A model generated the notes under the pieces. It did no database searches, was not told where the DNA came from, and was given only the letters and a program-made list of their open reading frames with translations. A DNA stretch of 64,000 nt from contig NZ_PYYB01000001.1 in assembly GCF_003044185.1 (NCBI RefSeq), positions 186,001-250,000 on the forward strand, given 5' to 3'. Source of the DNA: Paraconexibacter algicola. GTDB taxonomy: Bacteria > Actinomycetota > Thermoleophilia > Solirubrobacterales > Solirubrobacteraceae. This document shows, in pieces, positions 30,771-32,010 of this stretch; position 1 is the first letter of the stretch; each line of letters opens with the position of its first letter. The translations under genes and the position numbers were made by a program.

Positions 30771-30857
30771 GGAGAGGTGCCGGAGTGGTTGAACGGGCAC
30801 GACTGGAAATCGTGTGTGCGTTAACGCGTACCGAGGGTTCGAATCCCTCTCTCTCCG
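30771..30857 (+). tRNA. tRNA-Ser (anticodon GGA)
   Basis: 87 bases with a class II variable arm. The acceptor stem GGAGAGG pairs with TCTCTCC plus discriminator G (30850-30857). The anticodon stem CACGA/TCGTG encloses loop CTGGAAA with anticodon GGA at 30805-30807. The T arm is GAGGG-TTCGAAT-CCCTC. CCA is not encoded. It decodes UCC and UCU. Confidence 0.97.
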
Positions 30858-30878: not shown

Positions 30879-31364
30879 TCAGGCCGCCGCTGCCGGGCGG
30901 CCGGCCGTCGCGGACTCCAGCACCTCACGCGTGCGGCGCTGGCGGTGACGGAACGTCGGGCCCATCAGGCGCCGGACGACGAGCGCGTCCGCGAGCCGTC
31001 CGAGACGGCCGAAGGGCAGGGCGTACTGGACGTGGTCGGTGAGCTTCGTGCGGCCGTCCGGCAGCTCCTCGAAGCGGTGCTGGTGGACGAACGTGCGGAA
31101 CGGCCCGTCGAGCGTCTCGTCGACGAGCAACGTCGGCTCCACGAGCTTCGTCACGCGGACGCGCCAGCGCTGCGGGACCGGGAGCGGCAGCACCAGGACC
31201 TTCAGGACGACCTCGTCGCCCTCGTCGAGCGGGAACTCCCCCTCGACCCCGAGGATCGGCTGCGCGGGATGCCCGATGACCTTCGCGTTGCGCGTGTCGC
31301 GGTGGAACGCGAACACGTCCGCGACCGGCGCGTCGATGATCGTCTCGGCGTGAAAGGTGCCCAT
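30879..31364 (-). CDS. SRPBCC family protein (ligand-binding, cell division inhibitor-like)
   Basis: 161 residues from ATG 31364; the longer frame adds an Arg-rich lead and is rejected. The fold pattern is present: FHAETIIDAPVADVFAFHRD, VPQRWRVRVTKLVEPTLLVD, the central GPFRTFVHQHRFEELPDG strand turn, KLTDHVQYALPFGRLG and a long final helix. This matches the group with the GPF..W.H.H.F motif, sometimes annotated as SRPBCC/cell-division-inhibitor-like. The role is unknown. It lies convergent to the tRNA gene. Confidence 0.8.
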   Translation of the reverse strand: MGTFHAETIIDAPVADVFAFHRDTRNAKVIGHPAQPILGVEGEFPLDEGDEVVLKVLVLPLPVPQRWRVRVTKLVEPTLLVDETLDGPFRTFVHQHRFEELPDGRTKLTDHVQYALPFGRLGRLADALVVRRLMGPTFRHRQRRTREVLESATAGRPAAAA

Positions 31365-31479: not shown

Positions 31480-31530
31480 GGCCGTTCTGGGTGATCCGGG
31501 GCCCATATCTGGCACTGGGATCACCCAGAA
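31480..31530. repeat. 51-bp hairpin repeat, copy 1
   Basis: The element begins GGCCGTTCTGGGTGATCC and ends GGATCACCCAGAA. Its 13-bp arms (31485-31497 and 31518-31530) are perfect complements around a 20-base loop. It matches copy 2 at 48 of 51 positions, and the arms are invariant. Confidence 0.9.
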
Positions 31531-31796
31531 GCGGGCCTGGAGGGCGGCCCGCGGCGGGCGCGGCGCGAGCCGGCGCGAGCGCGGCGTGAACCGGCGCGGG
31601 CGCGGGCGAGCCGACGCGGGCGCGGGCGAGCCGACGCGGGCGCGGCTCGGGCGCGGCGCGGGCGCGGCGCGAGCCGGCGCGGGTGCAGCGCCCGGCGCGG
31701 GCGCGGCGAGGTCGCGGCCTGGGCGCGGCGCGGGCCCGGGGCGGGCCCAGGGCGGGCCGGCGCGCGGAGCAGGGGGCCCGGCGACGCACACGCTGC

Positions 31797-31847
31797 GGCC
31801 GTTCTGGGTGATCCGGGGCCCGTATATGGCACTCGGATCACCCAGAA
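31797..31847. repeat. 51-bp hairpin repeat, copy 2
   Basis: Second copy in the same orientation, 317 bp from the first, with perfect 13-bp arms at 31802-31814 and 31835-31847. The three differences from copy 1 are all in the loop. Confidence 0.9.
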
Positions 31848-31963
31848 CTCGCCGGCGCGGGATGCCCGGGACGCTTCGCGGGACCGGTGCGTGGCGTCCG
31901 CACCCCGCGCGCCGCGGCCGGCCCTGGGCGCGACGGAGCGTCCAGCCCCCGCCCCGGACGCGC

Positions 31964-32010
31964 GACCGCCGTACGAACCCCGCGCCCAGCGCAGGGTTCG
32001 TACGGCGGTC
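31964..32010. terminator. 17-bp perfect stem hairpin downstream of yceI-like gene
   Basis: GACCGCCGTACGAACCC (31964-31980) pairs without mismatch with GGGTTCGTACGGCGGTC (31994-32010) around a 13-base loop. It lies 64 bases beyond the stop of the minus-strand YceI gene. A factor-independent terminator without a T tract is the simplest reading; a protein-binding site is possible. Confidence 0.6.

Follow-up and report, generated by a model that had tools for sequence, protein, structure and literature searches.

A probable REP/REPIN-like family of 50-bp extragenic palindromes in a Paraconexibacter algicola genome without RAYT

The spread of the best-studied short palindromic repeats is tied to RAYT transposases. 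REPINs consist of conserved inverted ends which enclose a variable spacer and stand at a perfectly conserved distance (PMC3116915). Tagged REPs lie outside genes, are overrepresented between convergent and between unidirectional genes, and form several families within one genome; their CGTC group has no transposase dedicated to it (PMC3733652). TIRtron-derived TIR repeats, which are longer, partly self-complementary and family-forming, flank a TIRYT gene by definition (PMC3733652).

In the window, that is the whole 64,000-nucleotide stretch of DNA that was analysed, the preliminary description had pointed to two hairpin repeats, 31480-31530 and 31797-31847. Sequence comparison and repeat search bear this pair out: 48 of 51 positions are identical at an offset of 317 bp, both copies share one orientation, perfect 13-bp arms and 20-base loops, and all three mismatches fall inside the loop. 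The DNA between the copies is indeed GC-rich and of low complexity. About 5e-12 such pairs are expected by chance in 64 kb. The true unit measures 50 bp (31483-31532 and 31800-31849), since likeness stops at both of these borders. Both elements are located upstream of a SRPBCC gene and downstream of the stop codon of a YceI gene. The features of the locus are listed below, R1 being a covariance model built from an alignment of 28 copies.

30879-31364, minus strand: SRPBCC / polyketide cyclase-like flanking gene (codon model; PF10604, E 5.7e-07)
31483-31532, no strand: copy 1 of the palindromic element, 50 bp, scoring 64-65 bits with R1 on either strand (family member G000:C1:217483)
31485-31497, plus strand: left outer arm of copy 1, TTCTGGGTGATCC, near-invariant across 44 copies
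31503-31512, plus strand: core of copy 1, CCATATCTGG, consensus CCRNATNYGG with ATAT off the dyad (column counts)
31518-31530, plus strand: right outer arm of copy 1, GGATCACCCAGAA (sequence/repeat search and column counts)
31546-31790, no strand: GC-rich low-complexity filler between the copies (repeat families D1-D3)
31800-31849, no strand: copy 2 of the palindromic element, 50 bp, scoring 69-70 bits with R1 on either strand (family member G000:C1:217800)
31802-31814, plus strand: left outer arm of copy 2 (sequence/repeat search and column counts)
31820-31829, plus strand: core of copy 2, CCGTATATGG (sequence and column counts)
31835-31847, plus strand: right outer arm of copy 2 (sequence/repeat search and column counts)
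31964-32010, minus strand: separate strong hairpin I3, an inverted repeat with 22-nt arms, 95% complementary, and a 3-nt loop
32074-32589, minus strand: YceI-like flanking gene (codon model; PF04264, E 4.4e-19)

Hairpin I3, which separates the elements from the YceI gene, is a candidate terminator of that gene. Filler comparable to that between the two copies occurs at several other clusters (e.g. L076, about 1300-1560; also L009). The sole Rfam 15 match is a tRNA gene at 30771-30857, downstream of the SRPBCC gene, which from its sequence we take to be probably a tRNA-Ser.

For the preliminary description, a genome holding these two copies only would have counted against its reading. A search of the 4.74-Mb genome with R1 revealed about 44, arranged in 22 clusters of one to four; the 13-base arm by itself occurs 22 times. 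Every copy is 50 positions long, free of insertions and deletions, and follows the consensus CG(T/A)(T/A)CTGGGTGATC-6 variable-CC(R)(N)AT(N)(Y)GG-6 variable-GATCACCCAG(T/A)(T/A)CG. Its conserved parts are two outer 10-bp arms (CTGGGTGATC/GATCACCCAG) and the CC..AT..GG core: between clusters, pairwise identity reaches 0.90 in the arms, 0.78 in the core and 0.41 in the spacers, against a flank background of 0.38. The 6-bp spacers have drifted to near flank background. Half-sites standing alone were not found anywhere in the genome at 0 or 1 mismatch.

The motif ATAT lies one base left of the dyad in 14 copies and one base right of it in 13, but on both sides in a single copy (expected 5.1, p 0.007). 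We considered this anti-palindromy as a relic of one asymmetric ancestor present in two orientations; the signal exists, but position pairs are mostly unlinked, and it is more simply described as displacement of ATAT to one side of the dyad. Shuffling of half-sites by recombination at the core is likewise unsupported, the halves being weakly linked. A diverged subgroup (C1:446050, C1:1158227, C2:38874) has left arms AACTGGGCGG and comes nearer to a perfect outer palindrome. Two diverged members, C1:272879 (L062) and C1:1158227 (L066), have in common a left flank that holds another palindrome, GGCTTCCGCGGAAGCC.

It had also been proposed that both window copies encode a shared peptide, FWVIRGPY..GSPR. 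The quoted translations are correct and the frame is open in both copies, but this openness is incidental: variation over the 44 copies shows no codon-position periodicity, so a shared translated frame is unsupported, and other frames are open or closed equally by chance. Moreover, the copies sit between genes. We consider the chance that the elements are a translated peptide repeat practically negligible.

Next, we examined the genomic position of the family, with genes called by a simple codon-usage model rather than taken from curated annotation. All clusters are intergenic, one element overlapping the last bases of a predicted gene. The elements are located about 10-110 nt past stop codons, mainly between convergent genes, which account for 12 of 25 intergenic sites compared with a baseline of about 11% (p 4e-6). 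Neighbouring gene calls are weak at four of the 25 sites, and the test is no weaker when these sites are dropped. At one locus (L077) strand differed between two runs of gene calling; a Pfam histidine kinase match on the plus strand favours the first run.

For comparison a complete genome of the same genus was available (G007; RuvB 79% identical). Downstream of rpsG, G007 has a similar hairpin and then, within a few bases, the apparent start of the same convergent gene, whose identity was judged by eye and not by alignment. The gap there is almost nothing in G007, while in this genome it spans about 560 bp and holds three elements with GC filler. Similarly, the convergent pair of a lipoyl ligase-like and a DUF gene (L065; tblastn) is separated by 19 bp in G007 and by about 360 bp with three elements here. 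Gain versus loss is polarised at these two loci only, because G007, the sole sister genome, is distant. GC-rich filler makes up much of the gap expansion.

Copying between loci is evident in at least one case. Segments C1:163002-163124 (L061) and C5:96972-97094 (L076), on different contigs, are inverted copies of one 123-bp dimer; their linker and spacers are 83% identical, and some flank is also alike. Local tandem duplication is evident at other clusters. Since flank homology between loci is convincing in two cases only, copying of most elements is deduced from the shared unit itself. Taken together, about 44 intergenic copies, mainly at gene 3' ends, gained relative to the sister genome and including a copied two-element unit, lend good support to the earlier proposal of an interspersed REP-like element.

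Scanning 800 kb of G007 (L121-L160) de novo for recurrent palindromes revealed other families of the same build, nearly all of whose copies are fixed in length; shuffled sequence yielded no family. The clearest are the following.

Family A, 47 bp: CGGCGTGCGGTC-N23-GACCGCACGCCG (e.g. L131:2311-2357, L136:812-858)
Family B, 47 bp: CCGACTGACAG-N25-CTGTCAGTCGG
Family C, 49 bp: GGTGAATGAAG-N27-CTTCATTCACC

Two further families, D and E, in the size class of 45-51 bp, are less certain, and the remaining groups from the scan are GC-rich matches of low complexity, most of them coding-like. With 124 matches over both strands, family A amounts to about 60 copies in G007; it is absent from the 39 other genomes searched, this one included. 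Its outer arms are conserved at 0.92, the centre being more variable, and 9 of 12 of its loci are convergent, compared with a baseline of 16% (p 9e-6).

Such a position invites the explanation that the palindromes are transcribed hairpins, serving between convergent genes as bidirectional terminators or as stabilisers of mRNA 3' ends. The predicted hairpins are very stable (-28 to -38 kcal/mol, z -5 to -8.6), the location shortly after stop codons of chiefly convergent genes suits this role, and family A often takes up the larger part of the space separating two stop codons. TRIT hairpins of Mycobacterium tuberculosis (Gardner 2011, cited in PMC3526491), reportedly sequence-conserved terminators, likewise represent a lineage-specific common hairpin at gene 3' ends of an actinobacterium. 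Unlike TRIT, our elements have a conserved core that is unpaired and show no covariation, and at some loci a separate hairpin lies nearer the gene: at rpsG a conventional conserved hairpin comes before the element, and in the window hairpin 31964-32010 is closer to the YceI gene. Terminators, moreover, need no shared sequence, no T-run follows the stem, and the L065 convergent pair does in G007 with a 19-bp gap and no hairpin.

Variation among copies lends no support to structured RNA, which had been offered as one possible identity of the repeats. Variable positions pair less often than shuffling would predict: symmetric variable positions form 4.89 pairs, against 5.62 for halves taken from different copies (p 0.003), a deficit arising partly because ATAT is displaced to the left or to the right of the dyad, hardly ever both ways. 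A hairpin kept by base-pair covariation was rejected in the first copy set as well, where symmetric-pair matching was no higher than in any shuffle, and the elements have no Rfam 15 match above gathering score. In view of all this, a function as transcribed 3'-end hairpins is quite improbable.

A look for a RAYT-type transposase gene in the genome had been suggested. The corresponding domain, PF01797 (Y1_Tnp), has 0 matches both in this genome and in complete G007, while the same search detected it in G005, G014, G018, G035 and five control genomes. Matching flanks, as target-site duplication of a MITE would leave them, are not in excess. At 0 or 1 mismatch, no solo arm was found in this genome that might mark an end shared with an autonomous IS. 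Phage or plasmid origin was rejected, no match of note being obtained.

In our opinion, the copies are best regarded, with a probability of about 0.6, as a species-specific, REP/REPIN-like family of extragenic palindromes that spreads without RAYT, its arms presumably held constant by a protein. The elements would spread within the genome as discrete 50-bp units or dimers through the action of a putative enzyme, and would persist at gene 3' ends, where insertion does least harm. Arms and core would be kept because recognition by a sequence-specific protein requires both halves, spaced at a fixed distance. This protein could be the mobiliser itself, or a host protein acting on the double-stranded palindrome. 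Any effect on the host, be it as a 3'-end hairpin, a supercoiling site or a roadblock, would be secondary.

The same conservation could be read differently, with the 50-bp palindrome as a duplex site of a dimeric or tetrameric chromosome-architecture or regulatory protein, kept in place and non-mobile. Conserved arms and core beside spacers at background, fixed length and missing base-pair covariation would all be expected of such a site. Neighbouring elements are, besides, spaced by 73 bp (five times), 74, 83, 84 and 95 bp, post hoc near multiples of the helical turn. Over all spacings below 130 bp, however, phasing is not significant (p about 0.06-0.09), none is seen among neighbours in G007, and the spacings are not independent, because of the five 73-bp linkers three seem to be related. 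Helical phasing of neighbouring elements is suggestive only, and some 73-bp spacings are inherited. A static site also accords poorly with the two-element unit copied between loci together with its linker and some flank, with gaps expanded relative to the sister genome and with the several unrelated families of that genome. We therefore hold such a non-mobile host site to be unlikely, and the same applies to the idea that the putative protein touches the core and both arms at helical distances that do not vary. A protein-binding palindrome may nonetheless form part of the answer.

By anatomy and position, the elements appear close to REPINs and tagged REPs, and with about 44 intergenic copies they are multi-copy extragenic palindromes, as REPs are. 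With REPINs they share conserved inverted ends around a less conserved spacer, fixed distance, extragenic location, tens of copies, hairpin-forming ability and species-specific families (PMC3116915). They differ in size, being 50 bp long where REPIN GI ends are spaced 71 bp (PMC3116915), and in the absence of a RAYT gene. REPINs show compensatory changes, whereas variable paired positions here match less than shuffles; neither half, moreover, is a repeated palindrome in its own right, and halves are never seen alone. GTAG- and CGTC-tagged REPs resemble them in having many extragenic palindrome families per genome, enrichment at convergent and unidirectional genes, dimers and clusters (PMC3733652), and the CGTC families also in lacking a dedicated transposase. 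Tagged REPs are, however, 20-40 bp long (PMC3733652), compared with 46-51 bp here, and carry an unpaired GTAG or CGTC end tag, which our elements lack, both their ends reading CG(T/A)(T/A)C or its complement. CGTC families have an 8-9 bp stem and a 4-5 nt loop, in contrast to outer arms and a conserved core within a 20-nt centre. TIR repeats are likewise longer, partly self-complementary and family-forming, but neither this genome nor G007 possesses the Y1_Tnp gene that would have to be flanked. Because of these differences in tag, size, compensatory change and RAYT, we do not file the elements as REPs or REPINs.

It is conceivable, though we put it forward tentatively and with some doubt, that the genus carries a new class of repeats, 45-51 bp long and fixed in length, with conserved arms and core, drifting spacers, RAYT-free spread and arms of each species' own. 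If so, species-own arm sets imply a fast-changing mobilising or recognising protein, with genomic sites renewed along with it. Two congeneric RAYT-less genomes with differing families of the same build represent a comparative system for finding another mobiliser or a fast-evolving DNA-binding protein. The same pair allows us to ask whether the repeats are selfish or serve gene ends.

The family is narrowly distributed. The R1 search gave nothing convincing in 150 related genomes, and an exact-pattern search of 85,000 GTDB species genomes gave one chance match only, a cyanobacterial sequence (L080) that reads as argS-like coding sequence; the same pattern is absent from the viral contigs searched. 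In the open-access papers searched, such repeats are not described for this bacterial group, which is weak evidence of novelty. Small samples of G003 (300 kb), G006 (100 kb) and, from other genera, G025 and G014 (200 kb each) contain no convincing comparable family. A hairpin after ruvB in G006 was dismissed as a family, no other copy of it being seen. Downstream of rpsG in the same genome (L097), repeated CGCACGATCTGC / GCAGATCGCACG motifs were observed, which may represent another species-specific palindrome family.
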